Assembly: GCA_039801725.1 (NCBI GenBank)
Contig: JBDRVE010000001.1
Span: 14,833 to 78,832 of the forward strand
Direction of reading: 5' to 3'
DNA: 64,000 nt
Source of the DNA: a candidate division WOR-3 bacterium
Lineage (GTDB): Bacteria; Hydrothermota; Tepidihabitantia; Tepidihabitantales; DTDR01
Positions within the stretch are counted from its first letter, which is position 1. Each line of letters begins with the position of its first letter. Position numbers and translations under genes: made by a program. A model generated the notes under the pieces. It did no database searches and was not told the origin of the DNA. It worked only from the letters and a program-made list of their open reading frames with translations. This document shows positions 5,651 to 33,175 of this stretch, piece by piece.

Positions 5651-5771
5651 TTATGCGATTTTCTTAGAAGTTCTCTAAGTCTGGTTTCTCTTTTTTAATT
5701 TCTTTATTTTCTTATTATTTTAAGAAATTATTAAATAATTCCGATAATTTCCTTAACTTAATATTATTCCC

Positions 5772-5799
5772 TTGACATTTTAAAATTTTTGACTATATT
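5772..5799 (+). promoter_or_regulatory. Orphan sigma70-type promoter
   Basis: TTGACA (5772-5777), 16-bp spacer, TATATT (5794-5799). No convincing gene follows: the nearest ATG (5810) opens only 13 codons. It could drive a non-coding transcript toward the G-rich stretch and the repeat array, or be a relic. Confidence 0.4.
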
Positions 5800-5923
5800 T
5801 GTATTAGTTATGTTTATAGAATGTTATAAATTCTTAATAGAAATATATTAAAAAATGGGAAAAAATTTGCACAGAAGAAGAAAAAACCTAATGGAGGGGG
5901 TAATAGGGGGTAGGTGTATCATA

Positions 5924-6043
5924 CGGGAATATTTTTAACTCTATTAGTGTTAATAATGATACTTTTATTAATGGTAATAACAATAACTTTATTAAGGCGA
6001 ATAACAATAATCTTATTAATGGCCTTATAAATAAGCGGATTTT
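5924..6043 (-). repeat. Diverged 24-bp tandem repeat array A
   Basis: About five units of exactly 24 bp; on the minus strand the clear ones begin TTAATAA or CTAATAG. Individual units match units of array B (32947-33114) at about 20 of 24 positions although the arrays are 27 kb apart and in opposite orientation. Each unit contains an AATAA...TTATT dyad. Two frames stay open across the array, one hydrophobic (Leu/Ile) and one reading N-K-x-I-I-I-x-x. Confidence 0.75.
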
Positions 6044-6442
6044 TAAGAATTTCATAGTGCTTAAATAACCCCTGGATGTTGGACTATGTAGACAGAACTC
6101 CCTCATTAGATAGAAAGAAAAGTAAAGTCAAATATAATAAATAAGGCTGTAAGATGAGAATAGTCAAGAGAACGATAACCTAACATAATAAAATGTTACT
6201 TTTATTCAGGATATTTTAGGTATTCTTTGAGTATAAGTAAAAGATTTTTTTGTCTTAAGGGAATTCTTTTAAATAACTTCAAGGTATTTTTATCTTAATA
6301 CTCTTATTAAGTTGGTAATTATCTCTTAGCACATTTACTTTTTTTCCTTGATTTTTAAAATTATTTCTTTAAAATATTTATTTTTGGGAAAATGGTTGAG
6401 GATTATATTTATTGGGCTTGTGAAGTCCGCATAAGCGGAGCA

Positions 6443-14630: not shown

Positions 14631-16492
14631 ATTAAAATAAGAATTGCCTCTATCACAAAGATTAAAAGAGCCAAAAATAAAAAAAGATAGGTTAATTCAT
14701 ATTCTAATTTTACCTCTCCCTTTATTATTTTTAAATTATTATTTTCTTTTAAATTTATTTTTTTTAAATTACCCTCTTCTCCTCGAACATTCACTGAAAT
14801 TTTTTTATCTTCAAATTGATATATTCCCGGTATTTCTGTTTCAGAAAATTTTATAATCTTCATCCCCTTTTCTACTTCCGTATTTCTTAAAAAATTTCCT
14901 AAAGGAGTAATAATTTTTATCTGGGAGGAATTAAAATTTAATATTATTGTTTCACCAACAAAAAAGTTATTTTTCTTTTTAATCTTACAATATTCTATTG
15001 TTCGAAATATTAATGGTAAAAATAATATTTTCATTGGCATATCAGTGTAACCGTCCGAAAAATTGCTGGTAAAAATCATCAAGTTATTCAAAGTGTCTTC
15101 TAAAAGAAAAGGAAAATTATTATTGAAATACGCTAATATTTTTAAATTTTCTCCTTTTAAAGGAATCATTCGATAAAACTTTGGCTCTTTGATCGTCTTT
15201 TCTGGGAGGTTTTGAAAAATAAAATGCTCTTTTTCCCATTTATCAATCACCAAAAATTCTTTTCTTTCCCAAATTTCGGAAGTTTCAAAAATTTCATTTA
15301 ATCTATTTTCTTTTAAGTTTTGACCTAAAATCAAAATAACTTTTCCATTATTTTTTAAATAATTTAACAGTTGCCATTTTAAAAATTGATCAATTTTAGA
15401 AGGGTTAACTAAAAGAATCAAAGAATAAGAAGAAAAGGAAACCTTCTTTATTTCTCCTAAAGATACATAATCTACTTGATAATCTTTACTAGATAAAAAT
15501 AGTTTTTTTAAATAAAAGAGATCGCCCTCTTTTTCATAAATAACTAAGATAGGAAAATGTTCTGTTTTATCATAAACAAAGTAATAAACATTATCACTTT
15601 TTAGATTTTCTTCTTCAATTTCAACTTTGCCAGTGATTATTCCTTGAGCGGATTTTTGAGGAATCTCTAAATTAAATTCTTTTATACCAGGGGGAAGAGT
15701 TAAAAAATTTTTGAAATTAAAATCTTCTATCGAAAGGATAAAGGGAACCTCTACAGGAGAAGAAGAATAATTAATTAATTTTATTTGTAGATTAATCTTA
15801 TCTTCTCTTGAAGGCAAGAAACGAAGCCCAATAATTCCACAATTTTTAAAATTATCTTTTCCCAAATCAATAATTTTTAACTGAAAATTACCTTTAAAAT
15901 TTTTCAGAAAAGAATAAGAATATTCTTGCAAATCAGTAATTAAAAAAATTTCACCCTCTAAATTTTTTAATTCCTCCAAAATTTCTTGGGCATAAGAAAT
16001 ATCATAAGAAATTTTCAAATCTTCAATTACCCTATCAGAAATATTTGTCACTTTTTCATTTTCTATAATCTTTTTCCTACTGGTTAATAAAATTGTAACT
16101 CTTGAATTTTGAGAAAGATTTTTAATAATTTCTTTTAGAATCTTTTTCCCTTTTTCAAAATTATCTTCGTATTCCATACTGTAGGAATCATCTAAAATAA
16201 GAATAATCTTTTCTGCCTTTTGAGGCAAAATTTTTAAAATAGAGGACCCTTTTCTAATAAAGTATGGTCGACTTAGATTCAAGATCAAAAAAGTAATAAA
16301 GAAAGTCCTTAAAAAGAGCAATAAAATGTCTCTTAACCGATAAAAATTAAATTTTTCCTTTTTAAAATCAATCAAAAAAAACAAAGAAGAGAAATCAATC
16401 TTTTTAAGTTGAAAGCGAAAAATGAAATGTAAAAGTAATGGCAAAGAGGCCAATGGTAAAAGATAAAGAAAAAAAGGAATAAAAAAATTCAT
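14627..16492 (-). CDS. BatA-like membrane protein with von Willebrand A domain
   Basis: 621 residues. The N-terminus (about 1-80) has two membrane segments joined by a loop, the 'aerotolerance regulator' BatA domain. A vWA domain starts near residue 90 with a MIDAS motif D-D-S-Y-S. A long C-terminal half has a gatase-like L-I-L-L-V-N-P-S region, and a final transmembrane helix ends the protein. Its start overlaps the DUF58 gene as ATGA. In this family such proteins pair with DUF58 and a MoxR ATPase; no MoxR gene is here. Confidence 0.82.
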   Translation of the reverse strand: MNFFIPFFLYLLPLASLPLLLHFIFRFQLKKIDFSSLFFLIDFKKEKFNFYRLRDILLLFLRTFFITFLILNLSRPYFIRKGSSILKILPQKAEKIILILDDSYSMEYEDNFEKGKKILKEIIKNLSQNSRVTILLTSRKKIIENEKVTNISDRVIEDLKISYDISYAQEILEELKNLEGEIFLITDLQEYSYSFLKNFKGNFQLKIIDLGKDNFKNCGIIGLRFLPSREDKINLQIKLINYSSSPVEVPFILSIEDFNFKNFLTLPPGIKEFNLEIPQKSAQGIITGKVEIEEENLKSDNVYYFVYDKTEHFPILVIYEKEGDLFYLKKLFLSSKDYQVDYVSLGEIKKVSFSSYSLILLVNPSKIDQFLKWQLLNYLKNNGKVILILGQNLKENRLNEIFETSEIWERKEFLVIDKWEKEHFIFQNLPEKTIKEPKFYRMIPLKGENLKILAYFNNNFPFLLEDTLNNLMIFTSNFSDGYTDMPMKILFLPLIFRTIEYCKIKKKNNFFVGETIILNFNSSQIKIITPLGNFLRNTEVEKGMKIIKFSETEIPGIYQFEDKKISVNVRGEEGNLKKINLKENNNLKIIKGEVKLEYELTYLFLFLALLIFVIEAILILI

Positions 16493-17370
16493 CTAATTCT
16501 TGCTCTTTTTTCTAGATAGTTAAAGAAAACGAAATCAAAAGGCATATTGGTAAGAATAAGATTATAATCGATATAATGAGCAGCGCACTCTTTCTTATAA
16601 TGAAGAAATAAATTTTTCAAATTTTCTTGATATTCTTTTTTTATTCCCCTTGGGTCTAAAGTGATTTCTCTTTTTGTTTCTAAATCCTTAAAAATTAATG
16701 GTTCGTTATAATCTAAATTTATCTCGTTTGGATCAAGAATATGAAAAACTAAAACTTCATTTTTCTTATGACGCAAATTTTTCAATGCTTTTAGTACATT
16801 CTCTTGGTTATCAAAGAGGTCAGAAAAAACAATAATTAATCCTCTTTTTTTTATTTTCTTCCCAATTTCAGTTAAACTTTTTAAAATATCTGTTTCTCCT
16901 TCTGGTTTTACCTCTTCAATTATCTTCAATATTTTTGATAAATGAAATTTAGAACACTGTGGAGGAAAATATTGATAATCTTTTTTATTAAAAATGGCTA
17001 TTCCTACGCTGTCATGTTGCTTAAATAATAAGTAGGCAAAACAAGCAGTTAAAAAAGAAGCATATTCAAATTTGCTTATTTCCCAACTTTTATAAGCCAT
17101 TGAACCTGAATTATCTAAAAGGAGATAGGCTCGTAAATTGGTTTCTTCTTCATACTCTCTAACCCAAAATCTATCAGTTTTCGCAAATATTTTCCAATCA
17201 ATTTTTTTAAGCTCATCACCAGGTAAATAAGGACGATAATCAGCAAACTCTATTGACTGGCCTTTATAGGGACTCTTATGAAAACCAGAAAGAAAACCTT
17301 CCACAACTAATTTTGCTTTTAAATCCAATCTTTTTATCTTATGAATTATTTCCGGTAAAAGATATTTCAT
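16489..17370 (-). CDS. DUF58-family protein with vWA-like fold
   Basis: 293 residues. It has the DUF58 signature S-P-Y-K-G-Q-S-I-E-F-A-D-Y-R-P-Y-x-P-G-D and D-W-K-I-F-A-K-T, followed by a MIDAS-like L-D-N-S-G-S-M. No membrane segment. It is translationally coupled to the BatA-like gene after it and to the aminotransferase gene before it (4-bp overlaps). DUF58 proteins normally work with MoxR AAA ATPases in assembly or maturation of envelope complexes; the exact role is unknown. Confidence 0.85.
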   Translation of the reverse strand: MKYLLPEIIHKIKRLDLKAKLVVEGFLSGFHKSPYKGQSIEFADYRPYLPGDELKKIDWKIFAKTDRFWVREYEEETNLRAYLLLDNSGSMAYKSWEISKFEYASFLTACFAYLLFKQHDSVGIAIFNKKDYQYFPPQCSKFHLSKILKIIEEVKPEGETDILKSLTEIGKKIKKRGLIIVFSDLFDNQENVLKALKNLRHKKNEVLVFHILDPNEINLDYNEPLIFKDLETKREITLDPRGIKKEYQENLKNLFLHYKKECAAHYIDYNLILTNMPFDFVFFNYLEKRARIR

Positions 17371-26698: not shown

Positions 26699-27334
26699 TT
26701 ATGGTGTTTCTAAATCTCCTTTATAAATCCAAACTTTTACTCCAATTGTTCCATAAACGGTAAAGGCAGTATCTGTTCCATAATCAATATCAGCTTTAAT
26801 CGTTTGTAACGGAACCCTTCCTTCTTGTAACCACTCAGAACGAGCAATTTCCGCACCCGCAATTCTTCCGGAAATCCTTATTTTTATTCCCTTAGCACCC
26901 AGCCTCATTGCTTGACTAATATGCCTTTTCATTGCTCGCCGATGAGCTACACGTTTTTCTAATTCGCGTGCCAATTGAAATGCGACGATTTTAGCGTCCA
27001 ACTCTGGAACCCTTATTCCTTCCAAATCAATATCCACATCCACTTTCCGATCTATTAACTTTAAAATTTCTTCACGCAATTTATCTTTACTTTTCCCACT
27101 TCGACCACTAATAAAACCAGGCCGAGCGGTATAAATAAAAATATTGATTCTTTCAGGAAATCTTAAAATCTCAATATCGGAAATTAGTGCATCTTCATAT
27201 TTTTCTTTTATAAAATCTTTTATTTTTAAATCTTCTAAAAGATATTTTCGATAATTTCTTTCATCAAACCATTGAGATTTCCAGGTTTTAGTAATGCCTA
27301 ATCGAAATCCGTAAGGATGTGTCTTTTGTCCCAT
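26699..27334 (-). CDS. rpsC: 30S ribosomal protein S3
   Basis: 211 residues. N-terminal [12 protein letters not shown], a KH domain with P-G-x-I-S-G-R-S-G, and [13 protein letters not shown] in the C-terminal domain, which faces the mRNA entry. Its start overlaps the rplV stop by one base. Confidence 0.98.
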
Positions 27335-27702
27335 TATTCCTCCTTTCCTATCTCTTCTTCTTTAGTTGCTACGGTAATATAAATATGAGAACTTCTTCTT
27401 CTTATCATCATCGCTCTTCCCATCGGTCCGGCTTGCCATCTTTTTAACATCGGACCAGGGGTTACTCTCGCTTCTTTTACATATAAATCTTCTTCTTTTA
27501 TTTTTGCTTTTCCTGCTTTATAAATTGCATTGGCAATTGCTGATTTTAAAGCCTTTAAAATCGGTACTTTATGTCTTGGCTTTGGTAAGAAATAAAGAAT
27601 ATTTAAAGCCTCTTTAGCATTTTTCCCACGAATCAACTCCAATATCCGATTAGCCTTTTTTACTGAAATTCTTTGATAACGACTAATCGCCCTTGCTTCC
27701 AT
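27334..27702 (-). CDS. rplV: 50S ribosomal protein L22
   Basis: 122 residues. The conserved S-V-K-K-A-N-R-I start, the extended loop K-R-W-x-x-G-P-M-G-R-A that lines the exit tunnel, and the I-R-R-R-S-S-H-I-Y-I motif are all present. Short Glu-rich C-terminal tail. Confidence 0.98.
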   Translation of the reverse strand: MEARAISRYQRISVKKANRILELIRGKNAKEALNILYFLPKPRHKVPILKALKSAIANAIYKAGKAKIKEEDLYVKEARVTPGPMLKRWQAGPMGRAMMIRRRSSHIYITVATKEEEIGKEE

Positions 27703-27708
27703 AAATTA

Positions 27709-27999
27709 TTATTTCTCCTTTTCTTTACCTTTCTCTTTTCTTTGACCCGCATGGGCTCTAAATGTTCTTGTGGGAGCAAATTCGCCCAAACGATGACCCA
27801 CCATTCTTTCGGTAATATATACTGGAATAAATTTTATTCCATTATGAACCGCAATCGTATGACCAACAAATTCCGGTACAATCATACAAGCACGAGCATA
27901 GGTCTTTACTACTTTTTTTATCCCCTTTTCGTTCATTTCCATTATTCTTTTGTATAATTTCTGGTCAATATAAGGTCCCTTTTTAGAACTTCTCCCCAT
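27709..27999 (-). CDS. rpsS: 30S ribosomal protein S19
   Basis: 96 residues. [12 protein letters not shown], followed by [15 protein letters not shown] and [14 protein letters not shown] identify S19. Lys/Glu-rich tail at the C-terminus. Confidence 0.98.
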
Positions 28000-28001
28000 A
28001 A

Positions 28002-28844
28002 CTATTTCCTTCGCTGAACAATAAATTTATCTGATGCCTTTCCTCTTTTTCTTGTTTTCTTTCCTTTTGCTAACAACCCTTTTTCTGAACAAGGATGCCT
28101 ACCACCGTGGGACCTTCCTTCTCCACCACCCATTGGATGATCTATCGGATTCATAGCCACTGCTCTTGTTCTCGGTCTTCTTCCCATATGTCTTTTTCTA
28201 CCGGCTTTTCCAATAGTTACGTCTTTATGTTCTGGTTTAGAAACTTTACCAATAGTAGCCATACAGTCTAAATGAAATTTTCTTATTTCTCCTGATGGCA
28301 ATTTTACTACTGCATATTTTTCTTCTTTTGCTAAAATTTGACAAGATGTTCCGGCTGCCCGAGCGATGTAAGATGGATAATTAGGATAAAGTTGTAGGTT
28401 ATGAATTTCCACTCCCACAGGAATTAACCTGAGAGGCATAGCATTACCAATCTTTATCGGTATTTCTTTATCTCGCGTCGACATAACAATATCACCAATC
28501 TGTAAACCATCGGGAGCAATAATATAACGATATTCGCCATCTTGGTAACAAACCAAAGCAATCCAGGCAGTCCGATTTGGGTCATATTCGATAGAAACAA
28601 CCTTTGCCGGTATATCGTATTTATCTCTCTTAAAATCAATAATCCGATAATATTTCTTCTCTCCGCCACCCCGATATTTTGCGGTTATCCTACCTAAATT
28701 ATTTCTTCCAGCTTTGCTCTTTTTAATTACTAAGAGAGGTTTATAAGGCTCTCTTTTAGGAACCCCCTCTAATTTAATAACGCTATAAAATCTTCGTGCT
28801 GGAGTAATTGGTCGATACTTTTTTATGTAAGTTCTAACTGCCAT
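28002..28844 (-). CDS. rplB: 50S ribosomal protein L2
   Basis: 280 residues, full length. Near the C-terminus [16 protein letters not shown] carries the His important for peptidyl transferase structure. The N-terminal OB and SH3 domains are intact. Two bases separate it from rpsS. Confidence 0.98.
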
Positions 28845-31902: not shown

Positions 31903-32100
31903 TTAATTAAGTAATCTTCCTTTTTTTATCACATCTTTTATAATCTCTTTTATTCCGTCTAATATCTCTTTTTTTAAACCTTCTTTTATTGCCTTTTCAT
32001 CTGTCTCCTTTATCTTCTCTAATCTCTTTTTCTTTAATAGTTTGCGATATTTTCTCGCCTTGTTTAGATAATAAAATGTAAAGGTAAGGGCACCCCTTTT
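31903..32100 (-). pseudogene. 65-codon open frame without start codon, -1 relative to XRE gene
   Basis: After a TGA at 32101-32103 the minus strand stays open for 65 codons, reading Y-Y-L-N-K-A-R-K-Y-R-K-L-L and then a Lys/Glu/Ile-rich helix ending I-K-K-G-R-L-L-N. No ATG, GTG or TTG suitable as a start is present in its first 50 codons. It overlaps the last 12 codons of the XRE gene in the -1 frame, so it looks like a lost or frameshifted C-terminal extension of that protein. A separate helical peptide is an alternative. Confidence 0.5.
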
Positions 32101-32792
32101 TCACATAAATATTTTTTTATTAAATATTCTAATTTTATACATTCCCTCCGATATTTTAAATAGCCTTCAGCCATTCTTTTCCTCTTTTTATCAGTTATTG
32201 GTTTCACTTGATTTATTCTTTTTAATGCCATTTTATAAGCCTCGTAAGTAATTTTTGCTATTTTTGCTAAATGAAGTTTGTCTAAATTTCCTTCTTCTGC
32301 CTTCTTGTTTATCTCTAAAAAATAATTCTCATCTTTTCCATCTAAAAGACCATAAAATACCTTTTCACTAAACTTGATATATTTTCTAACTATTGAAGGT
32401 TCATAACCAAAAGGAAGCAAATAATTTTTTATCTTCCATTCTAATTCCTTCGGATAATTAATAAAAGGCTTTGATGAAAACCTTAATCCAAAACTATAAC
32501 GAAGTTTTTCTCTTACTAATTTCATTCCATTGCTTGCCTTTGCTTTCTCTTTTATCTTTAATAAGTTTTCTATTTCATATCCCTGGATTTTGCTGAAAAA
32601 TTCTCCATAATGAATATTTATTGCCTTTAAATAATTTAAAATCAAAAATATGGAAGGATTTTTAATCTCGCCCCTTTCTAATCTTGATAAATCACTTATA
32701 CTTTTCCTACAATATTTGGCAATCTCTTTTAAACTATATCCCCTTTCTTTCCTCATTTCTCTTAATAACTTTCCTATAAATTTTCTTAACAT
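32064..32792 (-). CDS. XRE-family transcriptional regulator
   Basis: 242 residues from ATG 32792. An N-terminal helix-turn-helix of the Cro/CI type occupies about residues 5-60 (R-K-E-R-G-Y-S-L-K-E-I-A-K-Y-C-R-K-S-I-S-D-L-S-R-L-E-R-G). The remaining 180 residues are helical, basic and unfamiliar. The ATG follows TATAAT by 6 nt; the TTG codon at 32825 is part of the -35 box and is rejected as start. A perfect 8-bp inverted repeat abuts the -35, suggesting autoregulation. The protein may once have continued into the -1 frame. Confidence 0.85.
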   Translation of the reverse strand: MLRKFIGKLLREMRKERGYSLKEIAKYCRKSISDLSRLERGEIKNPSIFLILNYLKAINIHYGEFFSKIQGYEIENLLKIKEKAKASNGMKLVREKLRYSFGLRFSSKPFINYPKELEWKIKNYLLPFGYEPSIVRKYIKFSEKVFYGLLDGKDENYFLEINKKAEEGNLDKLHLAKIAKITYEAYKMALKRINQVKPITDKKRKRMAEGYLKYRRECIKLEYLIKKYLCEKGVPLPLHFII

Positions 32793-32798
32793 CACCTT

Positions 32799-32825
32799 AT
32801 TATAACCATTAAAGATTTTTTTCAA
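32799..32825 (-). promoter_or_regulatory. Promoter of XRE regulator, predicted leaderless
   Basis: Minus strand: TTGAAA (32820-32825), 15-bp spacer, TATAAT (32799-32804), 6 nt to ATG 32792. The operator palindrome at 32826-32842 lies directly upstream. Confidence 0.6.
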
Positions 32826-32842
32826 TTTGCATAGTATGCAAA
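32826..32842. promoter_or_regulatory. Palindromic operator
   Basis: TTTGCATA-G-TATGCAAA, a perfect 8-bp inverted repeat with a single central base. It directly abuts the -35 box of the XRE gene, which is the natural candidate to bind it. Confidence 0.7.
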
Positions 32843-33175
32843 AATTTTAAAAATAGAAATTTCTTATAAGTCTTTATATTTCAAATACTTATTTTAGATT
32901 TAATAAAAAGATAGGGAACGTATCTCTCCAGCCTATTCTGTCCGTCTTAATAAGTCTCTTATTGCTAACTTTAATAAGGTTCTTGTTATTCGTTTTCATA
33001 ATGGTATTATCATTAATTCTAATAAAAGTATTATTATTAATTTTAATAAGCATATTATTATTGGTTTATATAAGCCTATTACCGTTGCTATAATAAAGTT
33101 TATTATCCATAAACTTCTTATGATTTTGGCTATTTGTTGATTGTTGAGAAAATTTTTATATACTACCTGGTCTTT
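32843..33175. other. Intergenic stretch between XRE operator and pyrE
   Basis: About 330 bp without a convincing gene. The first 100 bp are very AT-rich. The rest is array B and about 60 bp leading to the pyrE stop. Two plus-strand frames run open across the array only because the 24-bp unit lacks stops in them; neither has a ribosome-binding site. Confidence 0.6.
32947..33114 (+). repeat. 24-bp tandem repeat array B, seven units
   Basis: Seven contiguous units of exactly 24 bp starting at 32947, 32971, 32995, 33019, 33043, 33067 and 33091. Most begin with TTAATAAG or a one- or two-base variant and carry TTATT at a fixed distance, giving an AATAA/TTATT dyad in each. Units are diverged, not identical. 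They match array A at 5924-6043 at about 20 of 24 positions for the best pairs. There are no spacers, so this is not a CRISPR array. Confidence 0.85.

Follow-up and report, generated by a model that had tools for sequence, protein, structure and literature searches.

A frameshifted XRE-family regulator gene and the adjoining copy of an apparently undescribed family of dispersed array elements in a candidate division WOR-3 bacterium

We analysed a 64,000-nt window, meaning the whole stretch of DNA under study (positions 14833–78832 of contig C1), from the 1.63-Mb draft genome of a candidate division WOR-3 bacterium (G000; 61 contigs). A minus-strand ORF at 32064–32825 encodes an HTH_3 protein (Pfam), and some of its relatives from a protein search are recorded as 'uncultured bacterium' or 'candidate division WOR-3 bacterium'. 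Next to the gene lies a tandem repeat, 'repeat array B', which an earlier note on this DNA had listed as a neighbour of the gene. The array is indeed adjacent, but it is more than a neighbour: as judged from copies elsewhere, the palindrome upstream of the gene, a leader and repeat array B make up one copy of a dispersed element family. The family is apparently undescribed and travels with the regulator family in WOR-3 bacteria. The features of the locus, and of a second element in the window, are as follows.

5767–6150 (right end approximate), plus strand: type-3 element carrying 'repeat array A', with a TTGACA...TATATT promoter-like sequence, leader, G-rich core and 24-nt array
31903–32072, minus strand: out-of-frame remainder of the regulator gene, described earlier as a −1 frame extension (pN/pS 0.26–0.28, like the rest of the gene)
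31906–32207, minus strand: C-terminal helical module 2, interrupted by the indel (limits approximate; orthologue alignment, hhalign and frame check)
32064–32792, minus strand: XRE-family regulator gene, frameshifted copy, from ATG 32792 to a premature stop at 32064
32072–32073, minus strand: one-base deficit relative to both intact orthologues (DNA alignment and frame check)
32208–32465, minus strand: C-terminal helical module 1 (approximate limits; model and hhalign of module 1 against module 2)
32598–32765, minus strand: helix-turn-helix domain, PF01381 HTH_3 (E 1.2e-9; converted from ORF residues 28–83)
32799–32804, minus strand: TATAAT-like −10 element of the regulator gene, lying 6 nt upstream of ATG 32792 (sequence reading)
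32826–32842, no strand assigned: palindrome TTTGCATAGTATGCAAA, putative operator of the XRE protein, marking the left end of the dispersed element
32866–32892, plus strand: leader hairpin with an AAGT...ACTT stem (covariation across 18 element copies)
32910–32929, plus strand: G-rich core GATAGGGAACGTATCTCTCC, a conserved motif immediately 5' of the array (copy comparison)
32947–33120, plus strand: tandem array ('repeat array B') of 24-nt units, a 2 x 12-nt register

The regulator orthologues in the congeners G001 and G002 are uninterrupted and ~300 residues long (299–300), and they begin at the codon matching ATG 32792 and not at the TTG at 32825 given as the start in the ORF list. The window copy reads 242 residues in frame. 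Its −1 frame is open for 65 codons (31903–32100) with no usable start, as the earlier note had said, and the joined length of ~295 residues proposed there agrees with the intact orthologues. The shift itself had been placed in the GAAAAAGGGG run at 32095–32103, which is wrong by ~25–30 nt; alignment of the DNA with the orthologues puts the missing base directly after CAT TTT, at window position 32072/32073. The two congeneric orthologues do not end at the window's stop, as the earlier note had allowed they might, but run through the out-of-frame segment and align with it at their C-termini, and the region is also present in 14 of 14 other family proteins aligned.

Upstream of the lost base the window copy and G001 are identical at 176 of 240 positions with a pN/pS of 0.25, and in the out-of-frame remainder at 40 of 52 with a pN/pS of 0.26. 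Against G002 the ratios are 0.36 upstream and 0.28 in the remainder. Because the orthologues are continuous and the segment has evolved as the other parts of the gene have, we read the window copy as one base short: the '−1 frame extension' is the normal C-terminus of a regulator gene frameshifted by one base. The match in pN/pS on the two sides of the break points to either a very recent deletion or an assembly error. Within a 10.9-kb syntenic block, compared by tblastn using 14 G001 ORFs of at least 100 residues (the regulator included), all 13 non-regulator ORFs align in one window frame over nearly their full length. The frame is also continuous in the G001 and G002 copies and in a paralogue on contig C16 of G000, the single other regulator copy in that genome. 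An intact member of the family would have two complete tandem C-terminal modules, and the window copy, frameshifted inside module 2, does not qualify; if the loss is real, its protein is probably impaired, because much of the second module is taken away. Taken alone, such a split gene is ordinary.

The protein is an XRE (HTH_3) regulator, matching HTH_3 at 38.5 bits against a curated cut-off of 23, and XRE-type structures align to its residues 1–90 (best Z 13.7). Pfam lists the HTH alone, with no transposase domain and no TPR model. We regard the C-terminus as a tandem duplication of one basic helical module because hhalign matches the two halves of a 14-member family alignment (residues 116–201 against 202–298) with probability 97 and E 2.8e-11. 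The calculated pI is 9.4–10.5 in 15 of 15 family sequences. The C-terminus is predicted to be all-helical both in the regulator model (mean pLDDT 77) and when modelled alone (mean pLDDT 80, pTM 0.68), the structure prediction of these modules drawing on 3–4 sequences. The best VIA Z of the C-terminal model is 7.9, to Cas9d (rmsd 3.4, 89 residues), with other Cas9d entries at 7.4–7.5 and cyclin/TFIIB below 5; we set a Cas9d-like fold aside, taking the likeness as possibly a common helical arrangement. Assignment as a defence or phage protein was rejected. PADLOC matches are confined to the HTH region, save weak RmrA matches that extend further in one protein, and the NCBIfam matches are to HTH regulators and all fall far below the cut-offs. 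Phage records searched with the regulator gave no match, and none of the viral contigs searched encodes a relative of it.

The regulator mRNA is probably leaderless, because ATG 32792 stands six bases past the TATAAT. The palindrome was described earlier as a perfect TTTGCATA-G-TATGCAAA operator; it is exact at 32826–32842, and the operator reading is plausible, but as a single site it is unremarkable. When the 110 nt 5' of the gene were shuffled 100 times, 12 shuffles matched its score. In AT-rich DNA single palindromes often do not go beyond shuffle expectation: among 17 regulator genes, the best palindrome in the 110 nt upstream is reached by at most 12 of 100 shuffles in 10 and by more in 7. 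A genome-wide pattern search allowing up to three mismatches found 24 sites, one of them exact, against 9 for a reversed control. We consider the window palindrome meaningful because it recurs across the genome and marks the left end of element copies, and it is a plausible predicted operator for autoregulation.

When the region was searched against the genome as DNA, several other contigs matched, over the palindrome-side leader only. Three of the four matched loci read have the layout palindrome, ~20 nt, hairpin, ~15 nt, GATAGGG core and tandem array; at the fourth (L007) the leader is present in part only. A sequence-only model built from four element copies (R1) gave 54 matches in five genomes at E ≤0.1, with 8 each in G000, G001, G002 and G003 and 22 in G006. 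Of 30 returned loci, 29 were oriented and read (6 each in G000, G001, G002 and G006, and 5 in G003). For G006, 20 of the 22 places were fetched and 18 were kept after reading, with C37 and C7b dropped as not element-like and left out of later counts. Two of the five printed G003 matches (C51 and C26) are not element-like and were kept in the neighbour listing and excluded from array counts. There are ~6 copies in each of the three congeners (G000, G001 and G002) and ~18 in G006. The palindrome of these elements, which we call type-1, is species-specific and common to most copies within a genome: TTTGCAT-n3-ATGCAAA in G000, TTGGCAT-n3-ATGCCAA in G001, TGTCC-n5-GGACA in G002 and AATTATCTGATGAGATAA in G006, where two copies are of other subtypes. 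No conserved rightward promoter was seen by eye in type-1 elements. An Rfam search of five loci placed tRNAs alone above the gathering score, with no other known RNA family.

The leader is predicted to form a stem in which 86.1% of cells hold standard pairs (18 copies, three congeners); sliding the partner strand by one column lowered pairing to 40.5% and 51.5%. Its covariation score of 0.134 was equalled by none of 500 shuffles, and four of the ten pairs vary on both sides, while one is mostly unpaired (13 of 18 copies). Several copies contain G-U pairs, which would favour a hairpin acting as RNA over a DNA-only dyad.

The arrays keep a fixed register. In 38 of 42 array regions, at most 2 of 200 dinucleotide shuffles came up to the identity seen at lag 12 or 24, and the best lag in the range 4–40 was 12, 24 or 36 in 37 of the 42, against 22 of 90 flanking control stretches (excluding the anchorless G000:C25 and two duplicate names). 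The three congeners have a 24-nt unit, whereas that of G003 and G006 is 12 nt long, and its sequence is unrelated between lineages, being AT-rich, pyrimidine-rich or purine-rich. Eight copies with a similar layout in G008, G014 and G005 have a best lag of 12 or 24 in seven cases, the exception being G005:C10. Since the register is fixed while the unit sequence is free, these data suggest a protein or structure that counts nucleotides.

Array A, itself at 5936–6022, belongs to a different, type-3 element with the promoter-like TTGACA/TATATT at the left end. G000 has seven further matches to this element that cover at least 176 of 301 query bases; five show 87–96% identity over ~290 nt, and searches of G001 and G002 gave no type-3 match. 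Type-3 appears to have undergone a recent burst of amplification in G000.

Pairing of regulator and element was surveyed across 18 regulator genes: 16 whose upstream region was read, plus G008:C13 and the window gene (G001:C23 and G002:C85 were examined together with the elements). Ten of the 18 have an element, or its leader, divergently adjacent, namely the window gene, G001:C23, G002:C85, G000:C16 (where the contig end cuts it), G001:C14, G003:C116, G003:C121, G003:C32, G003:C394 and G008:C13. Three more (G012, G014:C70 and G005:C68) adjoin a core-like motif without an array, the upstream region of G014:C122 is cut by a contig end, and no recognisable element lies beside the other four (G006:C30, G005:C2, G008:C26 and G010:C1); for G006:C30 the nearest element is ~2 kb away. 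Two partial copies, G014:C149 and G006:C21, begin too close to a contig end and were excluded from the count. The adjacency recurs in several families of the order. At E ≤0.001, R1 matches 8 of 80 relatives (G000, G001, G002, G005, G006, G008, G014 and G073), that is, 7 of the 10 genomes with a near full-length regulator against 1 of the 70 others. The G073 match reads as a terminator-like stem and was dropped; G003, G010 and G012, which have a near full-length regulator, gave no match in this run.

Paralogous regulators have, as their sequences read, different palindromes and different element subfamilies. The pair G001:C14 and G000:C16 is associated with a distinct palindrome, AGTTTCC...GGAAACT, and with a distinct element, type-2, which is found at further places (at least 13 in G000, 10 in G001 and 5 in G002, counted from 40 scored candidates per genome, with 20 of 28 places read). 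G003:C116 and C32 have recognition helix and palindrome in common, and the half-site ATTACT/AGTAAT occurs at both G012 and G014:C70. In type-2 elements a second AAGT...ACTT dyad is often found left of the palindrome (L113:1588–1748, L148–L167). These paired dyads resemble dif-like arms; a Xer/dif-like module was rejected, there being no convincing second dyad of that spacing beyond the regulator genes. Separately, an intergenic stretch in G002 (L135; C2:16600–18000) holds a degenerate type-2-like palindrome and a GGGGCAGTATAGG motif, the latter also present in G006:C3b.

The copy at G001:C4 is a ~345-nt insertion relative to G002 and G000. Its flanks are contiguous in both, at C12:25397–26878 and 26882–28210 in G002 and at C10:14875–15828 and 15807–17103 in G000. 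Because two congeners lack this copy at orthologous sites that are contiguous, we conclude from the alignments that the element is mobile and was recently inserted at some sites. The filled and empty versions of this one site show no clear target duplication, and no transposase or terminal repeat was noticed for the element. With many intergenic copies and movement, the family falls within the general BOX/REP/MITE kind of interspersed repeat. Three of the G000 copies (C1, C3 and C25) are matched in a congener by a counterpart beside the same gene. At the G000 C20 site there is no clean empty site, G001 and G002 carrying other sequence there; in G001 (L134; C18:9500–11200), ~1.3 kb of other sequence lies between the genes that flank the C20 element. 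The ancestral pyrE-side locus in G002 (C77; L116) retains the element and a regulator remnant, and an intact regulator with an element stands at C85. We do not take C85 as evidence that regulator and element inserted as a unit, because that locus sits at a synteny break.

Neighbouring ORFs of at least 90 residues were called mechanically. Of the 18 type-1 copies in the three congeners, 17 have a called left neighbour, which is divergent in 15; with both sides counted, 11 copies point against two co-directional genes and 1 with them. Over all 34 listing rows with a left neighbour, 27 are divergent. The bias of type-2 is opposite, with 8 copies oriented with co-directional genes and none against (21 rows), so one simple regulatory rule is not sufficient.

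The adjacency of regulator and element, its recurrence, the leader structure, the array register, the movement and the tandem modules of the protein are the observations that an account of the locus has to accommodate. We think it somewhat probable that the XRE protein regulates its own gene and also works in trans on a cognate family of mobile array elements. The locus would then be a two-part system, made up of an XRE regulator, with an HTH and two basic helical modules in tandem, and a divergent copy of the mobile element. A regulator dimer would bind the palindrome at its own leaderless promoter and so autoregulate, binding of the same palindrome at the scattered copies would control element transcription in trans, and the two C-terminal modules may bind nucleic acid or oligomerise on the element. 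Weighing against this reading are the four regulators with no recognisable element alongside, the three regulator-bearing genomes that gave no R1 match, the palindromes that stay within shuffle expectation, the failure to find a conserved rightward type-1 promoter, a transposase, a terminal repeat or a target duplication, and the opposite orientation biases. That the protein binds, that the elements are transcribed and controlled in trans, and that the array has a role are all inferred; put most economically, a DNA-binding protein would regulate its own gene and have many private sites, each at the head of a structured array. A more ambitious version, which we hold to be unlikely, is a new mobile protein-array system in which the duplicated basic module reads the 12-nt-register array, as RNA or DNA, the HTH recognises every scattered copy by a private palindrome and each paralogue runs its own subfamily in the same cell.

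Three other explanations were weighed. The dispersed copies may be selfish or passive interspersed repeats of the BOX, REP or MITE kind, mobilised in trans by an unrelated transposase, in which case the regulator merely adjoins one copy and its palindrome was captured. Dispersal, the empty-site comparison and the position of copies between genes all fit, as does an anatomy like that of pneumococcal BOX, which also has a tandem internal module (PMC3049150). The adjacency, however, recurs in several families and with several paralogues, each with its own palindrome and element, and regulator and element co-occur across genomes; we regard this explanation as rather unlikely.

That the array is a protein-coding repeat, the element encoding a small repeat peptide under control of the regulator, seems to us quite improbable. 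Its register is a multiple of three, and one frame is often open and reads tetrads or octads (x-L-G-S, x-L-I-x, NNxFIxxN), yet many copies are interrupted by stops and the start codon is not conserved (ATA or ATG before GGG; GAG in G003). Six of seven type-3 copies share an open frame to a common stop, but their substitutions fall over all codon positions, with pooled ratios of 0.59–0.82 across the three frames. Four G002 pairs give a dN/dS-like value of 0.51–0.67 in frame 0, whereas G006 pairs have no consistently favoured frame, and overall the pairwise substitution counts give no support to coding. For the regulator gene, the earlier note had held a mutation or assembly indel to be as likely as programmed −1 frameshifting. 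The indel is supported; a programmed shift yielding the full-length regulator in this species is scarcely credible, and unnecessary because the intact G001 and G002 relatives need none. The out-of-frame segment still looks selected, but a very recent indel would leave an identical pattern, and the absence of a canonical slippery heptamer noted earlier holds at the actual shift site too, on reading its sequence. What matters beyond this locus is that in several families of an order one regulator family is accompanied by dispersed elements that are structured and mobile, and that the arrays of these elements keep a 12-nt register while the unit sequence changes completely between lineages.

In the open-access literature we found no account of such WOR-3 elements, nor of an XRE partner for dispersed array elements. 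REP/REPIN sequences with their RAYT proteins are dispersed palindromic elements tied to one dedicated DNA-binding protein, as in the WOR-3 system, but the WOR-3 partner is an HTH protein with two helical modules and no Pfam transposase domain. The RRNPP regulators, including Rgg, ComR, PlcR and PrgX, resemble the WOR-3 protein in having an HTH_3 domain and an all-helical C-terminus in ~300 residues, with a divergent small unit adjoining the gene. They differ in that structure alignments extending past the HTH have rmsd >10 Å, and in that the WOR-3 C-terminus consists of two tandem homologous modules. RRNPP proteins are characterised by C-terminal TPR repeats and an adjacent signalling-peptide gene; for the WOR-3 protein no TPR model was reported and the C-terminal fold matches are weak, and the adjacent element gave no clear coding signal. 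TIGR-Tas systems (PMC12045711) likewise have a short tandem array adjoining a single protein gene, with 36-nt tigRNA units, two spacers, box C/D motifs and a Nop-domain protein. The WOR-3 array does not fall among TIGR arrays: its register is 12/24 nt, with 36 as a multiple, and the HTH is the sole Pfam domain of its protein. Also similar in layout are the pneumococcal BOX elements (boxA, tandem boxB, boxC), which are short, intergenic and dispersed, combine a conserved part with a tandem internal module and a predicted RNA structure, and proliferated in the genome in the past (PMC3049150). 'BOX-like' here denotes resemblance in layout, by description, with membership claimed for the general kind only. 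The WOR-3 element is set apart from BOX by its 12/24-nt register, by the operator-like palindrome at one end and by the cognate XRE gene that adjoins one copy.
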